Virus record (IMG/VR): IMGVR_UViG_3300025914_000005
Location: 1-52,231 of that record
DNA length: 52,231 nt
Reading direction: 5' to 3' (one strand)
From: a virus
Made by a program: the position numbers and the translations under genes. Position 1 is the stretch's first letter; each line of letters begins with the position of its first letter. Of this stretch, positions 17,907-52,220 are shown piece by piece. Below the pieces are notes generated by a model. The model ran no database searches, had not been told where the DNA came from, and saw nothing but the letters and a program-made list of their open reading frames with translations.

Positions 17907-19886
17907 GTGCTCAACTACAACGATATTGCCTGCGATCTTGAAACGCGTTCTGTCGTCGATTTAAAAAAGTCGGGCGCGCGTCGGTACGCGGCCGATCGCA
18001 CTACAGCCATTACGGTTGCGGTCTGGAGTTTCCGCGACGTCCGAAAATCCGCCTGCCCGCTTTACCCGCAACTTGGCACCCACACGATTGCGGATCTCTA
18101 CGCGGATATTTTCGAGTGCATTCGTTGCGGTGGGTTGTTCAAGGCACACAACGCCAATTTTGACGTGAACGTGTTGCTGGGTCAAAACCCGTTCCTCGCC
18201 ATTCCCGTACGCCACGTTGATTGCACCATGGGCCGGGCACAGGCGCTCGCATACCCCGGCGGCCTAGATGAAGTCTGCAAGGTGTTCGGTCTGCCAGGCA
18301 AAGACCCGGAGGGCCACGCCGCCGTCATGAAGACGTGCAAGCCGGACAAGCACGGGCGGTTCTGTGAAGATTACGAAACGTACGTTACGCTGGTTGCGTA
18401 CGCTAAGCAGGATCTTGACTGCCTTATCAACATCGATGAACGTTTGCCACAGATCCAACCGGCCGAACGTCGGGTGTTTGAGCGCACGTGGCGCCGCAAC
18501 GAAATCGGCCTCCCGGTTGACACCCACCTTGCAACGGCTATCGCGCTTCGTCGGCAAGAGATTGAGGAAGAAACCAGCCGGCAGCTTGTCGATTTGACCA
18601 ATGGCAGCGTCACGAAGCTGTCCCAACGCGCTCGAATTCTCGATTGGGCCAACAGCGGCAATCGAGCCGCCGGGCTGGAAAGCACGAAAAAGTACATCGT
18701 TGACGAAAAGTTGCAGGATCAAAATTTGCATCCGGACGTCCGCACCGTACTTGAACTGTTGAAGTCCGAAGGCGGCTCCGCACCGTTGAAGGCGCAGACG
18801 CTTCTCGATAGGCATGTCAATGGTTGGTATAAAGACGGGACGCGATACTTCGGCGCGCGGTCTGGTCGCGGCACGTCCGAAGGTGTGAACGTCTTCAATA
18901 TCGCTCGCCCGTCCGGGAAGTTTGACGGAAAGGAAGGCCGGCCATCCATCGATCAGGTTATCGACTGGTTGAAGGCCGGCTTGCGCGAGGCGCAATGGAA
19001 TGGCGTTACGTACCTGATGAACAACACGGCGCTGTCCGATTGTTTGCGCGGCTGCGTTGGCGGGCTCGACGGCTACGCGGTCATCGACAACGATTTGTCG
19101 AACGCTGAGTACCGCATTGCAATGTGGATGGCTGGCGACCAAGACCGCCTAAACATGCTAGCCGCAAATGGCGACCCGTACATGTTCAACGCCATACAGA
19201 TGGGATGGGTGCCACCAGGCGCGACGAAAGAGACGCATCCGAAGCAACGTCAAGACGCCAAGCCGGTGACGTTGGGCGGCAACTATCAATTGGGCTGGAA
19301 AACGTACATGGCTCAACAGCGTACGGGCGGGCGCCGCATTGACGAAATGAAGGCGCAAGCCGATATCATGGGGTACAGAAGCGCCAACCCCAAGCTTGAG
19401 CAGTTGTGGCACGATCTGGCGGAAGCGTTTAAACTCTGCATCTATGAACATCCGGGGCGGATCTTCCCGGTTGGCAAGGTTGCATTCCAGAAAACCACGG
19501 ATGGCACGGTTTGGATGTTGCTTCCATCTGGCCGTTGCATTCCGCACTACAGCGCGCACATTACTACGTTCGGTGAAATGGCGTTCTTTCGTGGCAAGTA
19601 CGGCGCTATGCGCCGGCAAAAATGCTTTGGTGGTTCGTTACTGGAAATCGCTTGCCAATCGATCACGCGCGATATCATCACGACTGCGGAAGACGAGATT
19701 GAAATCGAAATGCCGGACACGCATTTGGTGCTGGACGTCTACGATAGTATCCTTGCACTGGCGCCCGTTGCAATAGCTAAAGAACGCGCTGAACAGATGC
19801 GCGGCATCATGTGCCGCGAGCGTACGTGGACTGCGGGGCTGCCGATAGATAGTGATGGCTACATTCACGTACGGATGAAAAAATAA
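17907..19886 (+). CDS. Family A DNA polymerase with 3'-5' exonuclease
   Basis: 659 residues from GTG 17907 (ribosome site GAGGGG). Exonuclease motifs: DLETR (D10, E12), HNANFD (81-86) and YAKQD (165-169). Polymerase motif A is DLSNAEYR (395-402), motif B contains RQDAKPVTLGGNYQLG (447-462), and motif C is VYDS (611-614). In the family motif C is normally HDE, so here D613 is kept but the next acidic residue is Ser. This is the phage replicase, acting with the prim-pol/helicase and SSB. Confidence 0.9.
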   Translation: MLNYNDIACDLETRSVVDLKKSGARRYAADRTTAITVAVWSFRDVRKSACPLYPQLGTHTIADLYADIFECIRCGGLFKAHNANFDVNVLLGQNPFLAIPVRHVDCTMGRAQALAYPGGLDEVCKVFGLPGKDPEGHAAVMKTCKPDKHGRFCEDYETYVTLVAYAKQDLDCLINIDERLPQIQPAERRVFERTWRRNEIGLPVDTHLATAIALRRQEIEEETSRQLVDLTNGSVTKLSQRARILDWANSGNRAAGLESTKKYIVDEKLQDQNLHPDVRTVLELLKSEGGSAPLKAQTLLDRHVNGWYKDGTRYFGARSGRGTSEGVNVFNIARPSGKFDGKEGRPSIDQVIDWLKAGLREAQWNGVTYLMNNTALSDCLRGCVGGLDGYAVIDNDLSNAEYRIAMWMAGDQDRLNMLAANGDPYMFNAIQMGWVPPGATKETHPKQRQDAKPVTLGGNYQLGWKTYMAQQRTGGRRIDEMKAQADIMGYRSANPKLEQLWHDLAEAFKLCIYEHPGRIFPVGKVAFQKTTDGTVWMLLPSGRCIPHYSAHITTFGEMAFFRGKYGAMRRQKCFGGSLLEIACQSITRDIITTAEDEIEIEMPDTHLVLDVYDSILALAPVAIAKERAEQMRGIMCRERTWTAGLPIDSDGYIHVRMKK

Positions 19887-20377
19887 TGTATTTCACCAGA
19901 AAGCTAACGTACGACGATGCGGGAAATTTATTCCGCATCACTTCAAACCCGGAAGTTACAAAGTATCTTGGCTTCCGTACGCATCGCGTTATTGACGATG
20001 CTCGCGAGTTAATTGCGGCGTACGCTAAAGCTAACGGTTACTGGTTTGGCGTATTTGACGGACTGCCTTGGGCTGAACGCCTGGTTGGTGTTGCCGGCTA
20101 TGAGAAGCAAGGGCACAGCATCGCGTGTGCTTTGTACTTCAGCCCGCTAGCGCGAGGCGCAGGACGCCGTTTTGCAGCTCCGTGGGTGCGAGAGCTATTT
20201 TTCCAAAACTCAGACATCAAACGTATATGGGCTCACTGTCACGTGGACAACGTCCAAGTTCAGCGTGTCATGGAACGGATGGGCGCCGTACGCGAAGGCC
20301 GCATGGCAAAGTATGCCGTATTCCCCAATACCAGCGAGGAACCACAGGATTGCTACCTGTACGCAATCACTTCTTAG
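19886..20377 (+). CDS. GNAT-family N-acetyltransferase
   Basis: 163 residues resembling RimJ/RimL-type acetyltransferases: NPEVTKYLGFRTH near the start, a central LVGVAGYEKQGHSIACALYF strand pair, and HCHVDNVQVQRVMERMGAVREG (the usual N-x-x-S/V-xxvmeklGF segment). Start codon overlaps the polymerase stop (TAATG). Substrate unknown; phage acetyltransferases can modify host proteins. It converges with the ejection protein gene with an 11-base overlap. Confidence 0.75.
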   Translation: MYFTRKLTYDDAGNLFRITSNPEVTKYLGFRTHRVIDDARELIAAYAKANGYWFGVFDGLPWAERLVGVAGYEKQGHSIACALYFSPLARGAGRRFAAPWVRELFFQNSDIKRIWAHCHVDNVQVQRVMERMGAVREGRMAKYAVFPNTSEEPQDCYLYAITS

Positions 20378-28093: not shown

Positions 28094-28190
28094 CCTGGTA
28101 AAGCTGATAGAAAGCAAGCCGGCGGAACTCCGTACGTTTCTGGAGAAGCACCGCACGCCAATATCGAGGAGCACTTGGCCAAATGACTGA
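27936..28190 (+). CDS. Small head-region protein overprinted on the portal end
   Basis: 84 residues (MQDQDLRDWINHPVTQAVRQVYQ...). WxxHPVT near the start is a pattern I associate with small proteins beside phage portal genes. It overlaps the portal gene by 158 bases in the +1 frame, where the portal reads as Gly/Pro repeats. GGAAAG upstream can serve as ribosome site. Confidence 0.6.
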   Translation: MQDQDLRDWINHPVTQAVRQVYQARSKGVVDRFLSGVAVVTELEQGQAAGWHDLVKLIESKPAELRTFLEKHRTPISRSTWPND

Positions 28191-28728
28191 TACCGTACAC
28201 CGCTTTCTAATCCCGCATGAACACGTCATCCCCACCCGGGACATGGTCATCATTCGCCTGCCCCGGCCGCCGGAGAAGGTGGGCAGCATCATCGTGCCGG
28301 ATCAATCGCGGGATATCGCGCAACACAACGTCATGGCCGGGCGTATCGTCGCCATGGGGCCGCTCGCGTTCAACTTCAAGGACGCGCGGAAAGAAGATGC
28401 GTCCGAATTCATGAACCGGCAAAACGTACAGCTTGGCGACTGGGTTCTGATCCGCCCGTTTGCCGGTACGATGGTTCAGGGCGGTCAGCTCATTCCCACC
28501 GGCTGGCGCTACGTCTCCAGCTTCCAAGACGTGATCGGTATCATTCCGGCGGACAAAATGCCGGCGGCCGAAACGCTGCAATGGGACGCGGACGAAAGCC
28601 AGCAAGGCGTTGAAGGTGCAGCCGTCGAGCTGGCGAACAAATCCCCCATTGCGCCCGTGCCGGATAACGTACGCGAGCGCGTCACGTACCCGAGCAAGAA
28701 CCCCAAGAAACAGCGCAACCACCGCTAG
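28183..28728 (+). CDS. GroES-like (co-chaperonin fold) protein
   Basis: 181 residues. RDMVIIRLPRPPEKVGSIIVPD, GRIVAMGP and LGDWVLIRPFAGT correspond to the beta-barrel blocks of Cpn10/GroES (DRVxV...GGIxLPD, GxVVAVGPG, VGDxVLFxxYAGT). The mobile loop region is replaced by phage sequence and a 60-residue extension follows. It could replace host GroES for capsid folding, as T4 gp31 does, or be a decoration protein with this fold. Overlaps the previous gene by 8 bases. Confidence 0.6.
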   Translation: MTDTVHRFLIPHEHVIPTRDMVIIRLPRPPEKVGSIIVPDQSRDIAQHNVMAGRIVAMGPLAFNFKDARKEDASEFMNRQNVQLGDWVLIRPFAGTMVQGGQLIPTGWRYVSSFQDVIGIIPADKMPAAETLQWDADESQQGVEGAAVELANKSPIAPVPDNVRERVTYPSKNPKKQRNHR

Positions 28729-29931: not shown

Positions 29932-30111
29932 ATGGCGAAGGGAAAGGGCGGCGGGGCGAAGAAAGCCCCCGCCAAGAAAGAACCCACGGCGGACATGCAC
30001 CGGCAGAAGGCGGCCGAACTCCACGCCAAAGCCAGGCTGCATTCGGCCCGTGCCGATATGATGGACGTCAAGAACCCGAAGAAAAAGGGTGACGTGCCGG
30101 GGTGCTACTGA
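29932..30111 (+). CDS. Small Lys-rich protein
   Basis: 59 residues starting MAKGKGGGAKKAPAKKEP, then an Ala/His-rich helix. GGAGG ribosome site. Strong positive charge suggests contact with DNA in the head. Its stop shares bases with the next start (TGATG). Confidence 0.6.
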   Translation: MAKGKGGGAKKAPAKKEPTADMHRQKAAELHAKARLHSARADMMDVKNPKKKGDVPGCY

Positions 30112-30356
30112 TGCCGGAACCGTCTTGCCCGCTGCCAAAGCGAGCGCGGGAGGCCCGCGTATTGCTCTGCAAAGGACTGCCCACCAAAGAAGTTGCTGCC
30201 GCGATGAACTGCGCACCGCGTACGGTAGAAGGCTACGCAGACGCACTCCGCAAGGCCTACGGTGTTCGCAACATAGCGGAGCTGATACGCGCGGTTTACG
30301 ATCTCGACGCGGTAGACGCAGCCAAAAACAAGGCCCCGGAATTACCCGGGGCCTGA
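30111..30356 (+). CDS. LuxR/GerE-type helix-turn-helix protein
   Basis: 81 residues. REARVLLCKGLPTKEVAAAMNCAPRTVEGYADALRKAYGVRNIAELIRAVYD is a complete LuxR-type HTH (GLxxKEVAxxM...RTVExY...LRxxYGVRNxAEL). Without a receiver or ligand domain, it may be a late-gene regulator or, given its place near head genes, a terminase small subunit. Ends at a bidirectional terminator. Confidence 0.65.
   Translation: MPEPSCPLPKRAREARVLLCKGLPTKEVAAAMNCAPRTVEGYADALRKAYGVRNIAELIRAVYDLDAVDAAKNKAPELPGA
30331..30353. terminator. Bidirectional terminator hairpin
   Basis: AGGCCCCGG and the complementary CCGGGGCCT flank a short AATTAC loop. It lies over the end of the HTH gene and just before the end of the convergent leftward gene. 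T-rich tails are weak on both sides. Confidence 0.6.
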
Positions 30357-35116: not shown

Positions 35117-37471
35117 TCAAAACGGATTGCCAAAGCCTACCACGCTGAACACGTCACAGTCTTGGAGTGTGGCAACGGCGTTCGTGACGTAGCACCCCAC
35201 CCGCGCCGCGGAAGTGGTCAGGTTAGCAGAGTTGGCCACGCCTACCACTCCCGGACCCGTACCCGTTTGCTGAGCCGCGCCCGAAATGGTGTAATTAGCG
35301 TCGAGCTGCGGTGTGATAAAAGTAAACGTGTAGTCACCGGCACCGTTGCGAATGCAAGACGTGACGTTAAAGCTATCCTTCAACGTACAGGCGGCTCCGG
35401 TCTTGCCGTCAACGCGCGCCCAAAAGAAGGGGTACGGGTTGCCCGAGAAACCAAGAAACTTGGTCCCGGTAAAAGCTTGCCAGTACACATTGCGGACTGA
35501 GAAAGTCTGCGGATTGATTTGACCGGAGGCGCCTTGAAGCTGCGCAAAGCCGGTGGCGACGTTCGTAACGTCCGAACGAACCTTGATACCGTCAATGGTG
35601 GCGTTGATCATGCCACCTTTGTTAATGCCGGTGCCGAAGATCATGCAGAACGTCGTAGGGCCGGATGCGGTGGTGCTAAGACACTCACCGTTTTTCCAGC
35701 TAAGATTGATGCCGGCCGCCGCGTACAGGCCCACCCCGTACGTGTTCTCCATATCGACGGCTTCTAGGGTGATGTTGTCGTTGGAGCCGGCTTCGGTGAA
35801 GTAAAAATTTGTATTCTTGTTCTGCGTGAAACCGATGTTCTTAAAGTTGGCGATCAGGCCGGTATACGCAATGGCCCCCGACATGGTTGGACCGTTGCCG
35901 TTAACCTGCATCTGCGGCGGTCGAAAAGTGAGCTGAACTACGCCAGATCCCGCGTAAGCACCAAGGGCGGTAGTATTGACGTTGTTGCCATTGGCGTCGC
36001 AGAGCGCGAAGCTGTTGGCCGTTACGGGAGCGCAAGCGCGGAAGTTACCAGGCCCGAGGGCCATGCCGGTGATACCCTGTACCCACACGTAGTCCCCAAC
36101 GGTCCAGTTAAAATTGGACGTTGCGGACGTCACTATGCCCGGATTGGCGTTGGTGATGGCGGTGATGCTGGTAGGATTGAAAAACGCGTTAATCGGCGGA
36201 ACCGTACCGCATAGGTTAAAGAAGCTGTTGATGACAGTGAGATTTGAATTCTCCAGCGTGTTACCCGCGCCGTTCAGGCACCACCCGCTGACATTGTCCC
36301 ACTTGACGTTATCAAAGGTTACGTCAAACCAGCCGTCACTATCACCGGACCAATTTGGCATGCCGACGCCATCGCCGGTAAGCCCCTTAAGATAGACGTT
36401 GCGCATAAACGAATAGCCGACCTTGAACCACAGAACGCCCGAAGCGTTCGCGGTGGCCGCGCTGTTGGTAATGGACAGGTCGCTTAGCTCTGCCTCTTGC
36501 CACACCGCAACTTTATTGGTCGGGACCGCGTGAGCACCGCCTACCGCAGTGATGGTGTAGGAACCTGCGGCAAGGCCGTGCGCGTCCGCCGCTGCGATAG
36601 TCGCATAGTGCGCTGGCGGGTTCACCGTATCGATGTACACCGAGTACGTGTAGCCGGATTGAATTGGCGGGAGCGTGAGCGCGATCGAACCGGAACCCGC
36701 GCCGCCGACCACGACTTGCTTGGCAAGCGGGCCAAAGATTTCGTTGGCAGAGCCGTCCGTAACGGTGACGTTGACGAAATAGGTGTTGGCCGCAAGAGCG
36801 CCGCCCGAGGTGGACGGAGTGAGGACGAACAGCGACTTGTACATGCTCGCCAACGCAGGGTTGACGGCAAGCATGTAGTCGTTGGCAACTGCGGTATCTA
36901 AATTCGTGACCAGCCGACCCGCGCCGGAAATCTTCACGCCCGGTACGGTCAGTGCTCCCGTAGTCGTGAAAGTATTGAGCGCAATCTTAGTGGCGACGTG
37001 ACACGTACCCGCTTGGAGGAGCAAACGACGTCCGGATATTGCCGCTATGGCCGTATTGATCGCGGGGCCGTCATCGGTGACGCCGTCGCACTTCACGCCC
37101 CACCACGGAGCGTACGCATAGCCAAACGCCGCAGTGCACGTGAGCGGCACAAGCGAGCACGAGCTGTTAATCAGCGTCGATAGCGCGGTGTGGAAAAAAC
37201 CCGAACCGTTGTAGGCAAGTACGTCATTCGTTGCCGAACCCGAGTTGTCCAGCCCCGTACCGCCCCCGTTGATGCCGACATTGCCAAATGCGGGGTCCGT
37301 CGAATTGCCGGTGCTGGTAAGCGGCTTGCCGGCCGCACCGGGAGCCGCATTGGTAAAACCTTGCGAACCGCTGCCGCGACCCACGGGAACCGAGTGCTGC
37401 GGAACCTGCCACTGCGCTAACGCAGGCGACACAGCCAACAGCAACGCGAGCGCCAAATAACGTACGTACTT
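35117..37471 (-). CDS. Pectate-lyase-fold tailspike with N-terminal signal peptide
   Basis: About 784 residues if started at the ATG near 37474, overlapping the previous stop (ATGA). The first 22 residues (MKYVRYLALALLLAVSPALA, then QW) read as a Sec signal peptide, which is unusual for a virion protein. GVKCDGVTDDGPAINTAI is the classic start of the beta-helix domain of receptor-degrading tailspikes. Probably binds or cleaves the host O-antigen or capsule. A longer upstream frame lacks a ribosome site. Confidence 0.75.
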   Translation of the reverse strand, partial: KYVRYLALALLLAVSPALAQWQVPQHSVPVGRGSGSQGFTNAAPGAAGKPLTSTGNSTDPAFGNVGINGGGTGLDNSGSATNDVLAYNGSGFFHTALSTLINSSCSLVPLTCTAAFGYAYAPWWGVKCDGVTDDGPAINTAIAAISGRRLLLQAGTCHVATKIALNTFTTTGALTVPGVKISGAGRLVTNLDTAVANDYMLAVNPALASMYKSLFVLTPSTSGGALAANTYFVNVTVTDGSANEIFGPLAKQVVVGGAGSGSIALTLPPIQSGYTYSVYIDTVNPPAHYATIAAADAHGLAAGSYTITAVGGAHAVPTNKVAVWQEAELSDLSITNSAATANASGVLWFKVGYSFMRNVYLKGLTGDGVGMPNWSGDSDGWFDVTFDNVKWDNVSGWCLNGAGNTLENSNLTVINSFFNLCGTVPPINAFFNPTSITAITNANPGIVTSATSNFNWTVGDYVWVQGITGMALGPGNFRACAPVTANSFALCDANGNNVNTTALGAYAGSGVVQLTFRPPQMQVNGNGPTMSGAIAYTGLIANFKNIGFTQNKNTNFYFTEAGSNDNITLEAVDMENTYGVGLYAAAGINLSWKNGECLSTTASGPTTFCMIFGTGINKGGMINATIDGIKVRSDVTNVATGFAQLQGASGQINPQTFSVRNVYWQAFTGTKFLGFSGNPYPFFWARVDGKTGAACTLKDSFNVTSCIRNGAGDYTFTFITPQLDANYTISGAAQQTGTGPGVVGVANSANLTTSAARVGCYVTNAVATLQDCDVFSVVGFGNPF

Positions 37472-38079
37472 CATGGTGCGATAACCCATCCTAGCAGATC
37501 CGCAGAGGGATACAGGGTAATTCCGTTCAACTGATCCGGTGTGGAGTACAGGCTCCAGTCGATTTGTCGCATGATAGTTTCGCCAACCACCGGATCTAAG
37601 TTGATTTGGTGACTTACAACGTTGGTTGACCAATCTACAATTTGAAGCGGTTGCGTACGTCCTACTACCGTAGGAAGTGACAGCGAGGTCACCGCAGGAT
37701 TATCGCGCTCAATAGCTGCTAGCGTAGTGAGCGCATTCACGGGCGCGCTGTTGGTAACCAACTGAAAAACGTTGCTGATGGAAGCCGCTGCAAACACCGC
37801 ACGCCACAGCAACGGCGTTGCAGGCTCAAATTCTTGAGTGGTGGGGTTGTACAGAAAAACAGCGCTTTCGGTTACCCACGACATAGTCGAAGTCTTCAAC
37901 CACACAGTAGAAGACACGTTGGTATTCGGTGGCGACGTGGGATTGACGTACAGCGTAAATAATCCAGCCCTAGCCATGGCGCTAAGTACGTAGTCAAGAC
38001 CGGGCATCCGCTCCAGCCGCACGCCTCCGGAGGTTTGCCGAAGCAATGCCAGAAAGTCTTGAGTGGAGCTGTACGACAT
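37471..38079 (-). CDS. Tail protein, short paralogue of the collar fibre
   Basis: 202 residues. The first 40 residues (TQDFLALLRQTSGGVRLERMPGLDYVLSAMARAGL) closely match the N-terminus of the gene product at 38085-39230, so the two are paralogues that probably share an attachment point on the tail. The rest has no recognised domain. Confidence 0.65.
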   Translation of the reverse strand: MSYSSTQDFLALLRQTSGGVRLERMPGLDYVLSAMARAGLFTLYVNPTSPPNTNVSSTVWLKTSTMSWVTESAVFLYNPTTQEFEPATPLLWRAVFAAASISNVFQLVTNSAPVNALTTLAAIERDNPAVTSLSLPTVVGRTQPLQIVDWSTNVVSHQINLDPVVGETIMRQIDWSLYSTPDQLNGITLYPSADLLGWVIAP

Positions 38080-42451: not shown

Positions 42452-42721
42452 GATAGTCGTGGCCTGCTTGAAGGGAGTGGACTACCAGCACAGCGATGTG
42501 ATGAGGAATTACCGATCATGATCATCTACCAAGGCGGCACAAACGATATTTTAGCGCCACCTACGCGCGGAGATATGCAGCGTAATATACTCGCGCTCAA
42601 GCAGCGCGCCCTAGAAGCTGGCTGCCGCGTTTACCCGAGGCTGCGTCAATCAAAGGGATTCAGGAAGCATCTGAGACGGGCGGGCCTTAAGCAGCCAAAA
42701 GGTAGTTTGCGACCATCGTAG
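42452..42721 (+). pseudogene. Antisense remnant of an SGNH hydrolase gene
   Basis: On the + strand, open codons from 42452 include IIYQGGTNDILAPPTRGD and NILALKQRALEAGCRVY, which look like block III and the following helix of an SGNH/GDSL hydrolase (GGxND). It lacks the N-terminal GDS block and the C-terminal DxxH block. It points opposite to the intact SGNH gene next door, so it is probably a leftover from tail-module exchange. A 67-codon ATG-started frame begins at 42518. Confidence 0.45.
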
Positions 42722-43856
42722 CAGCTTGTACGGTGCCTGTCTGGTTAGGGTGGGTTGCGTCGTACATCCAACCTCTGCCGTTGGCAACGGTCCAACTGCC
42801 TCCGAATAGATTGTAAAAGTCTAGTACTGGACATCGGTTAGCCGCACCAAGAGATATGATGGCTTGGTTATATGTCGTTTGAGGAATAGCCAAACTGCTG
42901 CTTTGCGGAAACGTCGTGCAAAGAATTACATCGCTATACTGCTTCCACGAGGTAATGTTAGTTTGATAGTCGCCCATGAAAGTGCCGGGCGTGCTCGCAT
43001 TACCGATCGTCGTTTGTGCCAGATAGTCGTTGACGCCAAAATTAGCTATCGTTGCAAGAACTGGAATCTGAGGTAGATTGGTCGCCGCCATCTGAGCGAG
43101 CTTTGGCGTATAGGTATTGACTTGGAGCGTTGACGCCTTCGCGCCTGAAACACCGTTGTTGTTGCAGCTAACGTCATAACCAGTCGAAAGCCATCCCCAA
43201 GCACCATATACTCGGACGGCGCCACCACTCGCACGAGCGATGTTGATAGTGTGGCCTGTTGCCGCAGCAAATGTTACCACAACAACTTGTGCAGATTGAG
43301 TGCCAGAAGAATTTACGGTTGCCAGCGTCGCGCCACCATCGACGTTTACCGTGAAAGTCCCGCCGCCACCGGTACCCTGCTGAAATAAGATCGCACAAGT
43401 ATCAAGGTTCTCCGCGACCGTAATAGACCAAGCCCCGGTATTGGCACCCGTTTGATTGATGCTTGTTCCAGAAAATCCTGCACCGTCGTTTGCGGCTTGC
43501 CAGCCGGTCAGCAGCGTCCCGATACGTGGGTCATAAGATAACCAATTGGCTGTTGTCGCATTGTTATCGCAGAAAATACCGGATGCGCGGGATGGCAATC
43601 CCCCCGCAGCGAGTAGTCCTGACACAATAACAGGAAGACAGTGAGCGCGAGAATCAATGTAGGCGTTGCTAGATGGCGGCGAGGCCACACCACTATCGCC
43701 GAAACCCATCATCGTGCTATCGCCGGGAAAGTTAATGGCGAAGCGGCTGGTCCCTGCTAAAACCCCAGCCTTACCTGCTCTGAGGCGCGACAACGCTAAC
43801 CCTTGCACTCCCCCAAGGGGAGCGGCAATGAGGTTGTTGTACCGAAACCCGCGCAC
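42687..43856 (-). CDS. SGNH/GDSL hydrolase-type tail protein
   Basis: 389 residues. FPGDSTMMGFGD is the nucleophile block (GDS), ANFGVNDYL block III (GxND) and MYDATHPNQTG the catalytic Asp/His block. The middle (about 130-215) is a beta-rich insertion. Such enzymes on tails remove acetyl groups from surface polysaccharide. This gene is less GC-rich than its neighbours, a sign of recent acquisition. Confidence 0.75.
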   Translation of the reverse strand: MRGFRYNNLIAAPLGGVQGLALSRLRAGKAGVLAGTSRFAINFPGDSTMMGFGDSGVASPPSSNAYIDSRAHCLPVIVSGLLAAGGLPSRASGIFCDNNATTANWLSYDPRIGTLLTGWQAANDGAGFSGTSINQTGANTGAWSITVAENLDTCAILFQQGTGGGGTFTVNVDGGATLATVNSSGTQSAQVVVVTFAAATGHTINIARASGGAVRVYGAWGWLSTGYDVSCNNNGVSGAKASTLQVNTYTPKLAQMAATNLPQIPVLATIANFGVNDYLAQTTIGNASTPGTFMGDYQTNITSWKQYSDVILCTTFPQSSSLAIPQTTYNQAIISLGAANRCPVLDFYNLFGGSWTVANGRGWMYDATHPNQTGTVQAATMVANYLLAA

Positions 43857-44161
43857 TAGCCGGAGCCCTTCGCGATCAAAGCAATCTCGCCCGTGAGCGC
43901 GGTGACGCCCGCAAGTGTCAATTGGTACTGGCCTGCGGGAAGCTGAAGCACGGTATAGCCATCTGCGGCAACCGGACCGCCGCTCCCCATGACCGAAACG
44001 TACGTACTGCCATCCGGTAGAAGCTTCTTAAGCGTTGCCGTACCCCAAGCCGTTGCATGCAGCGTCAAGCCATAAACGCCGGCATCAAGATTGAAATCAA
44101 GATCCGTCGCATTGATGGCGGCCCAGTACTGAAAGCTGCGCGGAATGTTGCGGATAGCCAT
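43856..44161 (-). CDS. Small virion-associated protein
   Basis: 101 residues (MAIRNIPRSFQYWAAINATD...), beta-rich (GVYGLTLHATAWGTATL, LQLPAGQYQLTL), resembling small spike or decoration proteins seen next to tail genes. Adjoins the SGNH gene. Confidence 0.6.
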   Translation of the reverse strand: MAIRNIPRSFQYWAAINATDLDFNLDAGVYGLTLHATAWGTATLKKLLPDGSTYVSVMGSGGPVAADGYTVLQLPAGQYQLTLAGVTALTGEIALIAKGSG

Positions 44162-44176
44162 TATGGAGCCCTCTGC

Positions 44177-45241
44177 CTAATGATGCGATGGAACGGAAAC
44201 AGCCTCTTGGCCGTCGCTACGCTCCCCCGATATGATAAGACGTCGGCAGTAGTCGCCGAAATCGCTAGCCACAGCATACCAGCGAAAAACACGCCCCAAG
44301 CAAACCAGGCCGATAAACGAAGAAACCGGCATCCAAAGCGGCATGGAGTACATGCCGGCGGTGACGAACGCGAGCAGGACGGGCCATTCACTAGCTTCCG
44401 TACGCCAGAGCGCGAAAGCAAGCATACCGATCGGGATAACTGCCATGACGCCGTATTCAAAAGCAAGCTGCAAAGCGTCATTATGCGCGTACTCCAAGAA
44501 AATCACATGGTTGTCATAGCGAGCCGCAACCTCATAGAACACGCCCGGCCCCCACCCCAGCCAGGTTAACGCGCTCCACGCCTGCGACCAGATAAACAAC
44601 CGCTGTACGTCTGAAGGCCCGAGCGACACGAAGTTAAAGAACAGCACCACGGCGCACAGAGCAAACGCGAATACCCACGTTCGACGCACCGCGCACCCGA
44701 GCAACCCGACAGCCAGCGCAAACCAGGCGCCGCGCGAACCGGACAGCGCGAGGCCCGGCAATAGCGGCAACGCCCACAACCACATGCGTTGAGAAACGAG
44801 CGCAACTATCAGCACGGCCAGAACCACGCCTAGCTGTACGCTGTTGACGAACAGCCCCGCCGGAAACTCGCTCACACGCGGAACTACGGACACGCCGAAA
44901 TGTTGCAGCATTGCAATGGCGGAAGACGCGGCGCAGCCAAGAGCTAACCCCGCGTACAGCTCGCGAGTGCTCTCCAACGTCGTGCCGAACCAAACCGACA
45001 GCGCCATGATGACCAGTTGCCAGAGGCCAAACACTCCAGAACCCGGCATCGGAGTGAACAATAAGTGGACAGCTCCGTACGCTACGAAAGCCAGCCCGGC
45101 AGTGTGCAACAACGTGAAAGGTCCACTGCGGAGTAGCGCGAACGGCAGAACGACGGATAGGAGGGGCCATTGTGTCGCAATGAACGCCCCGGTAACGCCC
45201 GGGACGTAGCAAAGCGACACAATGGCCCCTAACCAGAACAT
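44177..45241 (-). CDS. O-antigen ligase/polymerase-like membrane protein
   Basis: 354 residues from ATG 45241, with about ten membrane segments. The large periplasmic loop region contains GSRGAWFALAVG and EYAHNDALQLAFEYGVMAVIPIG, the hallmark of the Wzy/WaaL family (HNxxLq...eyG). Such a protein can alter or block host O-antigen assembly. It sits between virion genes, in the same direction, so it would be made late. Confidence 0.75.
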   Translation of the reverse strand: MFWLGAIVSLCYVPGVTGAFIATQWPLLSVVLPFALLRSGPFTLLHTAGLAFVAYGAVHLLFTPMPGSGVFGLWQLVIMALSVWFGTTLESTRELYAGLALGCAASSAIAMLQHFGVSVVPRVSEFPAGLFVNSVQLGVVLAVLIVALVSQRMWLWALPLLPGLALSGSRGAWFALAVGLLGCAVRRTWVFAFALCAVVLFFNFVSLGPSDVQRLFIWSQAWSALTWLGWGPGVFYEVAARYDNHVIFLEYAHNDALQLAFEYGVMAVIPIGMLAFALWRTEASEWPVLLAFVTAGMYSMPLWMPVSSFIGLVCLGRVFRWYAVASDFGDYCRRLIISGERSDGQEAVSVPSHH

Positions 45242-45246
45242 GGCAG

Positions 45247-45825
45247 TTAGTGCGCGCCGATCGCGAACGGGATGACGGTGGCGCCCGGGGTATTCTGAGC
45301 GCCAGCGCAAATTCGCGCCTGCGTGTACAGCGGAATATCAGCCGCCGAAGGCTGGCCGGGCTGAAGCGGAATGACCCGCTGCCCCGCGGTGCTCGAAGGG
45401 CAAGCCGCGCCCCATGCAACGGGCGTCGAAGCCGCAACGGTCATCGCCGCCGAAAGCGTGATGGACGTGACACCGTTGTAAGCCGAAACGGTCGTGCCCG
45501 AGGTGATGCCGGTGCCGCTGATGATGCAGCCCACGCAAGGCGCGATCGTCGGCACTGCGGTCAGCGTGAGTGCGGTGGACGAACCCGACGTCGAGCCCAC
45601 ACCCGCGCCTTGCGACGTGAACAGAAGCAAGTTGCCTTGCAAGATCCGGATTTCGATCGGGCCGTTGCCGAGATCGGTCGGAGCCGCCGCACCGCCGGAC
45701 GTCGAGCCATCGATATAAACCGGGAGCTGTGTGACGACCTGCCCCAGTGAGCCTTCGGTGGGGAGCATGAGCCCCAAAGCGACGAATGCCGCAACCACCG
45801 CGGTCTTGATGTTCTTCCACTGCAT
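45247..45825 (-). CDS. Secreted-looking virion-region protein
   Basis: 192 residues from ATG 45825 (ribosome site GAGGG). The N-terminus (MQWKNIKTAVVAAFVALGLML) reads as a signal peptide. The body has TALTLTAVPTIAPCVGCIISGTGI and a pattern of Thr/Ser/Gly strands as in fibre proteins. Second protein with an apparent signal peptide in this region, after the tailspike. Confidence 0.6.
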   Translation of the reverse strand: MQWKNIKTAVVAAFVALGLMLPTEGSLGQVVTQLPVYIDGSTSGGAAAPTDLGNGPIEIRILQGNLLLFTSQGAGVGSTSGSSTALTLTAVPTIAPCVGCIISGTGITSGTTVSAYNGVTSITLSAAMTVAASTPVAWGAACPSSTAGQRVIPLQPGQPSAADIPLYTQARICAGAQNTPGATVIPFAIGAH

Positions 45826-45868: not shown

Positions 45869-46603
45869 TTAGTCGGCGGTGAAGCCGCCACCGCCGCGAT
45901 AATGACGGGACTGATTGAACTGCACCTTGGCGACGAAGCCGGCCTGCGTCGGATCGTTGCCGATCACTTCGCCCGAACCGATGACGCGCAACGGCAGCGT
46001 GGACGTGTTCGCGAACGATGCCGGATCGATGGACACGCCCGACACGCCGAACCGCGTCGCTTGGAAGCCGGCATTCGCCTTGACGTCGGCGCCGCCCATG
46101 AGGAGCTGATTGAACGCCGTACCCGGCACGGTGGGAACAGTCGCGTACATTTCAAGCTGCGGGTCGGTGTCCACAAAACACCAGGCCTCCGTGTTGGCCG
46201 GAACGTACTGGAAGCCGTTCTTGGCCATGTACAGCGTCATCATGAAGCCGACGACCACACCCGCAAAAATGCCCGTAGTGTCGCCGGGCACATACCGCGT
46301 GATATTCGGCGCCATAGACTGGTTGCCGAGCCCGGAGCCGCCGCCGTTGCCGATCACGACCGAAGCGGAGGGGGCCGAAATGTTGAACGGGAAATCGCCA
46401 CCGCCCTGCACGCCATGCCCGCTGTCCGCGATCACTGCGATATCACCACGGAAGATCGCCGCCGCATTGGTGGCCGCCACGTGAAACGCCTTGACGGAAG
46501 CTTGCGCCTGCGGGCCGCCATCCCCGGGGTTGGCGGGCAGAAGGCCCGAATAGTGGCGAAAACCACCGATGCTCAAAGCAGACTGGTTGAGAAAGCTGGC
46601 CAT
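45869..46603 (-). CDS. Virion protein of unknown role
   Basis: 244 residues (MASFLNQSALSIGGFRHYSG...), Gly/Ala/Val-rich, beta-dominated, with no Cys cluster; composition fits a capsid decoration or minor head protein. GGAG ribosome site. First gene of the leftward late block that runs to 35117. Confidence 0.6.
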   Translation of the reverse strand: MASFLNQSALSIGGFRHYSGLLPANPGDGGPQAQASVKAFHVAATNAAAIFRGDIAVIADSGHGVQGGGDFPFNISAPSASVVIGNGGGSGLGNQSMAPNITRYVPGDTTGIFAGVVVGFMMTLYMAKNGFQYVPANTEAWCFVDTDPQLEMYATVPTVPGTAFNQLLMGGADVKANAGFQATRFGVSGVSIDPASFANTSTLPLRVIGSGEVIGNDPTQAGFVAKVQFNQSRHYRGGGGFTAD

Positions 46604-51500: not shown

Positions 51501-52220
51501 ATCCTTCAGCACGCCATTGTGCTGCAAATCACGTACAGCCGCCGAATATTCACCCTGCGTGGTCATGTTCGAAAGCTTGTCATATGCAAACTGTGCATTG
51601 GACAGATGACCGGCCACGCTTTCGTGAACCTGATCCGCGATGGCATCAGCCGCCTTCGGATCAATCGTCATCAGCCCTTGAAACGATTTGAGATCGCCCT
51701 TGATCGCGCGTTGCTGCGCAGCCTGTACGCGAGCCTCACGTGTGGCGTATTCGGACACTTCACCAGGCGCAAGCCCGAGGTTGGCCGCTTCCTGCCGGTT
51801 CTGAGCGATGACGGCTTTCTGCGTTTGGATCTTCTGAAGCGCTTCCGTACCTTGCTGCACAAGCGCAAGATTGTGGTTCTTGGCGTCCGGGTCCAGAATG
51901 CCGATGATGACGCCACGTACGCCCGTGCTCGCGTCGTTCGCGTGCTGTACGCGTTGACGCAGGATGTTCTCTGCCATGTCGAGCGGCTGAGCATCGGGGC
52001 CGGCGGGGTTGATGACCAGACCCGAACCGAACGCAGAAGCGGTGTTCGCGTTTTGGACGGGTGGGGTGGCGGGGGCAGAAGCAGCCAGCGGTACATCCGC
52101 GCCGATGCCACTTCCAACGGCCCCCGCCGAACCAGGCGACGGGTTCGCGCCGCCTGAATAAATGTCCGTGGACGTCCCGGTGAAGTCCAATCCGCTGCCA
52201 AAACCGCCTTGTTCCGCCAT
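48567..52220 (-). CDS. Large internal virion / DNA ejection protein
   Basis: 1217 residues. The N-terminal two thirds are Gln/Ala-rich helices (e.g. ALVQQGTEALQKIQTQKAVIAQNRQEAANLGL); a Pro-rich linker (about 535-600) follows; then a glycine zipper (GGVGGFMAGGPAGGVAGGAAGGAAG, about 745-770) that could insert into a membrane, and more coiled coil. The size and layout match podovirus internal core proteins that form the ejection channel. Ribosome site AGGAG just before the ATG at 52220. Confidence 0.75.
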   Translation of the reverse strand: MAEQGGFGSGLDFTGTSTDIYSGGANPSPGSAGAVGSGIGADVPLAASAPATPPVQNANTASAFGSGLVINPAGPDAQPLDMAENILRQRVQHANDASTGVRGVIIGILDPDAKNHNLALVQQGTEALQKIQTQKAVIAQNRQEAANLGLAPGEVSEYATREARVQAAQQRAIKGDLKSFQGLMTIDPKAADAIADQVHESVAGHLSNAQFAYDKLSNMTTQGEYSAAVRDLQHNGVLKDIQALGFKVPDTLDAFNSAKAGEGLALRNARISLDGLKNKLEARNTYQPMEKKEAESWDGRITTAYGDQVKAGVWSRNAASGTPGFVVNGMADPRQLGKSFTLGDNDQRKAVREEFETAVPKQQLEKFREFNRTYQLATHDEKGNLIDPKSKDPLNTNPNVQQGIAEGLASMLRGGSGGANVGLLKIETGKRAAVQNLIDTIKANYAGGINTLTGEQVRSYMTTLTQSQIRDVMDVIKGANDASINERGGRIMERAGALGFDSSVFGLGKGEYGGGIDDAMQSGRQAQIDRMMNSHQAIGGGDGVLQVGAQRPGAGAASLPPGAQPSNQLPGSPPVATPVQQAAGAVTPPPAGPAPSGTPSPRAPAAAPGGEGGEGGGDRPPGPQDPVHVQLQGVSSAVQQWLTDKGVPPGPGMQKQVQAVLTNPRIEKALESGKPIEPKTIAAALGKGGDKSVIQKIGDFLNAHFMQGVPEGEREQAAAAVGKAATDNAPAIGSTVGGVGGFMAGGPAGGVAGGAAGGAAGQVVQDYIRGNPQDPLKIGEQAALGGVLGVMSEARPVVATAARVAGAGAVEGGAAAARGDNAADAVDAGLKGAGSAVLGEAFGRALGMAGHKVWSLFSSDAKAGLENAAKSLSEARQTLETTEPKIAGANGTAAVDNPAYVQAERAVEKAETTIKDAGLKPEDVEYAYKVSQDKVPTGEATMNRPGELEKQRLGQQYTQMREDVRSAGVGAPKAAPSLNDGPIAAAASMSPTLQNEAKRVEMAITAPAQDWGHKWQQLQDARSSLLTAERDALGSTSPHKQRIADDYRTLADAVRVQQEKAAKYVFGEEGGKQLIERLKDVDRKYAILNTATNGGDLERAARMTGEKGRDADKAFRAFAGEDKEAIAAWDALREANKRNGNVEKDVRTLVGAEKIPVLGHLISASKLLAGLNEWRAAKAANAHADFGAMLGLKPGSAYSSFPAAASANAGANIAVRQ

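Follow-up and report, generated by a model that had tools for sequence, protein, structure and literature searches.

The window, by which we mean the whole 52,231-nucleotide stretch of virus record IMGVR_UViG_3300025914_000005, bears direct repeats of 127 bp at its two ends and represents a closed phage genome that maps as a circle of 52,104 bp. It belongs to a group of uncultured soil phages whose related contigs, 51–54 kb in length, carry the same genes in shifted order and in many cases end repeats as well; the shifted order is consistent with circular permutation. Host DNA within the contig was ruled out by the 127-bp end repeat together with this permutation-like arrangement. No close isolate was found (TerL about 30% and capsid at most 35% identical), nor any tRNA. 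Replication genes (primase/helicase, helicase, exonuclease and DNA polymerase) are located on the plus strand, and a run of conserved genes occupies the minus strand from position 52220 down to 31146, including those for a 1217-aa protein, a transglycosylase, tail proteins, a VanY-type endolysin and the large terminase. The gene for a Wzy_C-type membrane protein is embedded in this run, separated from the preceding gene by 5 bp and from the following one by 15 bp (Table 1).

Table 1. Features of the Wzy_C gene and its surroundings in the tail-gene run of the window.
Feature	Position	Strand	Evidence or remarks
Wzy_C-type membrane glycan polymerase/ligase gene	44177..45241	-	354 aa; Pfam, AlphaFold2 model, Foldseek, 14 phage members
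Codons S169-R170, first conserved Ser-Arg of the family	44732..44737	-	Invariant in 22/22
GN1 motif RX14GXG, R214 to G231, predicted large periplasmic loop	44549..44602	-	14/14 phage members
HNDALQ, residues 253-258, His motif HNX9G	44468..44485	-	HNX9G in 14/14 phage members
192-aa protein directly upstream, left slot edge	45247..45825	-	Sec signal-peptide-like N-terminus, recurrent in relatives examined
244-aa strongly conserved upstream gene	45869..46603	-	64-82% identical in 17 related contigs, some near-duplicates
101-aa protein, right slot edge	43856..44161	-	Directly after the 192-aa gene in six polymerase-less relatives
Tail protein with SGNH/GDSL esterase domain	42687..43856	-	PF13472 E 4.4e-8; PHROG 15881 tail E 1.9e-11
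Variable tail-fibre protein, same run	35117..37474	-	PHROG 11355 tail fibre, E 2.6e-10; Sec signal-peptide-like N-terminus

Several plus-strand genes elsewhere in the genome deserve mention. Among the replication genes, positions 19886–20377 encode a GNAT acetyltransferase that is kept in nearly all relatives. The product of 28183–28728 has a weak match to a phage GroES-like co-chaperonin (E 5e-4) and its gene is also kept in relatives; that of 30102–30356 is a LuxR/GerE-type helix-turn-helix (HTH) protein (E 8e-8) present in none of the relatives compared. The DNA polymerase gene of one relative, G013, contains an 864-bp insert (L061:8171–9034, minus strand) through which the polymerase frame stays open for 288 aa. 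This insert begins with Cys and ends with His-Asn followed by Cys, its N-terminal part matches PHROG 93 (E 5e-7), and from these features it appears intein-like. A second frame of the insert, open over 261 aa, codes for an HNH endonuclease (PHROG 374, E 6e-28); it would be unusual for an intein to contain such an endonuclease out of frame.

The Wzy_C gene is complete, with 354 codons running from an ATG at 45241 to a TAG at 44177, and its GC3 of 0.69 lies within the range of its neighbors. Pfam matches the protein to Wzy_C (PF04932, E 9.5e-7), scoring 29.2 bits for the protein alone and 32.4 bits in a whole-frame search, where the curated cut-off is 31.7; the tested homologues and Wzybeta of Pseudomonas phage D3 (21.9 bits) likewise fall under this cut-off. 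No family in PHROGs or NCBIfam matched the protein, and a sequence-profile search of the PDB returned 0 matches. Homologues of the window protein by direct search were confined to this phage group, giving 14 phage proteins with the window's own included. A chance open reading frame is ruled out by these homologues, 45–62% identical to it over the matched segments, and by an omega of about 0.1. Namely, dN/dS was 0.12 and 0.10 for two close pairs of phage Wzy_C genes, and the gene is therefore under strong purifying selection.

An AlphaFold2 model built on 22 sequences reached a mean pLDDT of 81.6 and a pTM of 0.83, an earlier model from 8 sequences being weaker (pTM 0.66). Foldseek against the PDB matched the model to the WaaL O-antigen ligase (7tpg, E 7.2e-7, prob 1.00), the sole match under 0.001, with which it shares a multi-span fold and a large periplasmic loop at 19% identity and a TM-score of 0.48–0.53. 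The only prob-1.00 match in a BFVD fold search was an uncharacterised 434-aa protein of Arthrobacter phage Faja (E 0.019), the host being Gram-positive by its name. The product is thus a multi-span membrane protein of the Wzy_C/WaaL superfamily, and the preliminary description of an O-antigen ligase-like protein was accurate in its coordinates, its family and its HNDxLQ motif.

Residue conservation was assessed in an alignment of 22 proteins, 14 from phages and 8 from bacteria (Gammaproteobacteria, Planctomycetota, Elusimicrobia, Hydrogenedentes and a Roseburia). An Arg/Arg/His set formed by R170, R214 and H253 is invariant throughout, as are S169, N254, D255, L257 and G264. The GN1 motif, defined in type-B Wzy proteins as RX(11-24)GXG (PMC12502699), is found in all 14 phage members, and GN1 followed by HNX9G arose in only 9 of 20,000 shuffles of the 354-aa protein. 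The full GN2 motif, HNX9GX(2-4)G, occurs in 0 of the 14, the second glycine being otherwise spaced or missing; most type-B members carry it, but not all (PMC12502699). Beta linkages accompany Wzy_C and the GN1/GN2 motifs (PMC4815439, PMC12502699), and the assignment to the beta type is weakened here because none of the phage members has the strict GN2.

These comparisons bear on whether the protein is a polymerase or a WaaL-type ligase. A ligase would transfer a host-made glycan onto another acceptor, or cap chains, and would change the density of the surface polymer rather than its linkage. The only solved structure matched is indeed the ligase WaaL, and Wzy_C spans ligases and polymerases; since no Wzy_C-type polymerase was among the PDB fold matches, the fold comparison favors neither. 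However, the phage-borne members described in the literature consulted, from D3 and epsilon15, are polymerases (PMC4815439), and on balance we regard ligation as unlikely. Sequence and model together fit polymerization, ligation and protein glycosylation alike and do not separate them. The Wzy of Salmonella phage epsilon15, a temperate phage, is, by its published description, likewise a phage-borne Wzy_C protein. The epsilon15 polymerase yields beta-linked O-antigen (PMC4815439 Table 2).

The closest described counterpart is Wzybeta of phage D3 (NP_061525.2; relatives in PMG1, phi297 and VarioGold), a phage-borne Wzy_C membrane protein of 386 aa that also has Arg and His in the Wzy_C loop and whose gene also lies near tail-fibre and lysis genes. 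Mutagenesis showed Arg254, Arg270, Arg272 and His300 of Wzybeta to be essential (PMC4815439), and the same source describes Wzybeta placed in PAO1 as changing the polymer (PMC4815439). A search for direct homology between the two proteins found none, tblastn giving no match and hhalign no significant one; the non-significant profile alignment pairs R270 and EYIHN of D3 with R214 and EYAHND of the window protein. D3 also differs in being temperate, in carrying an O-acetylase and iap, and in having wzy-beta on the strand opposite its late genes. Of the traits of D3-type seroconversion, Wzybeta homology, an O-acetylase and an integrase with repressor were not found in the window. There is no free space beside the Wzy_C gene, and Iap, the 31-aa alpha-polymerase inhibitor of the D3-type cluster, is too small for a reliable search.

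Among the nine members whose flanks were examined, the gene occupies one slot, between the 192-aa gene and variable receptor-binding genes. An independent sample drawn through the terminase and reduced to distinct genomes with a readable slot comprised five genomes with the gene (G020, G026, G028, G032 and G034) and seven in which the slot is empty (G006, G013, G015, G017, G021, G024 and G033). The empty slot generally has the 101-aa gene some 23–77 bp after the 192-aa gene (G013, G015, G017, G021, G024 and G033); in G006 a different small gene of the tail region comes next instead. In a tree built from seven concatenated core proteins, presence and absence of the Wzy_C gene require three changes. 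The gene is found on the deepest drawn branch, that of the window, which is long and of unsure placement, and on several well-separated branches. This pattern would fit an old presence with losses, though it does not prove one.

The seven relatives without the gene could also be read as a sign that a host gene was captured recently and has no selected role in the phage. Against this stand the omega of about 0.1, the presence of the gene on well-separated branches of the tree and the distance of its bacterial relatives, which in a pattern-based scan of a genome collection were only 23–38% identical. A plasmid search and a search of annotated phages gave no relatives of the protein, and no further phage Wzy_C proteins were found by way of the bacterial relatives. 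Recent capture from bacteria is therefore unsupported, and we consider a captured gene without a selected role highly improbable.

The preliminary description had also placed the gene among virion genes in a phage with no visible lysogeny genes, and had described O-antigen modification as known chiefly in temperate phages. The gene content of the minus-strand run bears out the first point, the second held across about 20 related genomes, and the third agrees with the D3-type phages described below. Genes for a tyrosine integrase, a resolvase or an HTH_3 repressor are all absent from the window, and a search for integrase in relatives, which the same description had suggested, found tyrosine integrase in 0 of 20 genomes of the group. 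A resolvase-family recombinase was present only in one complete relative (G026) and in the chimeric contig G016, and an HTH_3 protein over the cut-off only in one genome (G024). Recognised genes for lysogeny are thus missing from almost every genome of the group, an absence that does not by itself prove a lytic life. As a separate observation, G016 (98,428 bp; L095–L099) is listed as one virus and consists of the complete G017 genome linked, through 127-bp ends that both parts share, to about 46 kb of other sequence. It is probably an assembly chimera, and its reading as a prophage in host DNA was ruled out by this structure.

Twelve phage records match D3-type Wzybeta, and the three examined (D3, FBPa19 and Fyn8) are temperate, each with an integrase and a repressor. 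By analogy, the soil phages might be temperate by an unrecognised route such as plasmid-like maintenance, with the gene serving for lysogenic conversion in the classical manner of the D3 polymerase; the recombinase of G026 and the HTH_3 protein of G024 could be taken in the same sense. The absence of tyrosine integrase from the group, and of resolvase and HTH_3 genes from the window, argues against it. So does the arrangement of the locus: the Wzy_C gene is on the same strand as the virion genes around it and has no convincing promoter of its own, whereas wzy-beta of D3 runs opposite the late genes. A temperate life of this kind seems rather unlikely. Promoter- and terminator-like sites around the Wzy_C gene were no commoner than in shuffled sequence, and we infer its late expression from its position.

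Polysaccharide-directed domains in the region's tail genes include SGNH in the window and GH26 and BNR in relatives, and these esterase and glycosidase domains suggest polysaccharide receptors. The SGNH/GDSL tail protein, which had no match in 18 related contigs, is probably a receptor-binding enzyme, and the conserved 244-aa protein is probably a virion protein. Two neighbors, the 192-aa protein and the downstream tail-fibre protein, begin with Sec signal-peptide-like sequences as called by eye and by a simple rule rather than by a trained predictor; the N-terminus of the latter, MKYVRYLALALLLAVSPALA-Q, is similar in 10 of 11 relatives examined. Such N-termini recurring across relatives are odd for virion proteins. 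Furthermore, several relatives have a long protein that begins with a paralogous domain bearing its own signal peptide; the one in G013 looks pectate-lyase-like by eye.

These exported-type neighbors would be possible periplasmic substrates for a protein O-glycosyltransferase that decorates the tail-module proteins encoded alongside it. However, they are kept in relatives that lack the polymerase and so are not obligate partners of the enzyme. The protein also has no second PglL-type/Wzy_C_2 domain, Pfam at E <= 1 giving Wzy_C alone, and PglL enzymes are much longer than 354 aa. We therefore find protein glycosylation improbable. The signal-peptide neighbors do raise the possibility that the tail-gene run acts more widely on the host envelope. 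The run could then be a host-surface remodelling module, in which a periplasmic glycan enzyme and Sec-exported tail-fibre-like proteins act on the envelope of the infected cell, through lytic serotype conversion or through glycosylation of exported tail proteins; we hold this broader idea to be doubtful.

The explanation we favor, with about even confidence, is that the gene encodes an inner-membrane beta-type glycan polymerase, made late with the virion genes, that alters the host surface without lysogeny and blocks re-adsorption or superinfection. It starts from the observed family, fold, invariant residues, purifying selection and tail-run position and from the near-complete lack of recognised lysogeny genes in the group; we infer the late timing, the choice of polymerase over ligase, what the enzyme acts on and how the phage would profit. 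The enzyme, a type-B, inverting Wzy_C polymerase folded like WaaL and with its Arg/Arg/His active site on the periplasmic side, would sit in the inner membrane, presumably synthesized alongside the tail genes when progeny are near release beside receptor-bearing cells and debris. It would join the host's lipid-linked surface-polysaccharide units through a new type of linkage, probably beta. Because the catalytic loop would face the periplasm, these host lipid-linked repeat units would be all that the enzyme needs, and one phage gene could therefore change the polymer. The surface of the dying cell would then cease to fit the phage's own receptor-binding enzymes. Serotype conversion without lysogeny would in this way keep progeny off lysing cells and debris and would block superinfection, the role that the preliminary description had proposed and one that would agree with a gene set among receptor-binding genes. 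That the substrate is O-antigen is assumed here; capsule, exopolysaccharide or a protein glycan would be the alternatives.

Some observations count against late surface conversion by a polymerase. Seven related phages manage without the Wzy_C gene, an O-acetylase of the Oac kind (PF01757) was found in 0 of 19 genomes, unlike in D3, and no family-2 glycosyltransferase (PF00535) was found to accompany the gene. A similar role in lytic phages, a change of O-antigen or a masking of receptors that keeps progeny off debris, has been proposed for the Gnarl proteins and for Llp of phage T5 (PMC12373910). The Gnarls differ from the enzyme described here in being small and thought non-enzymatic; Llp differs in targeting the phage receptor and making no glycan.

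The family of this protein is known and its function has precedents in temperate phages, while its setting is new. Phage O-antigen polymerases accompany lysogeny in the annotated phages examined. If the polymerase of this soil phage group does act as we propose, serotype conversion would pay within a single lytic round as well, and this would show one route by which soil viruses retain enzymes of surface-polysaccharide synthesis.
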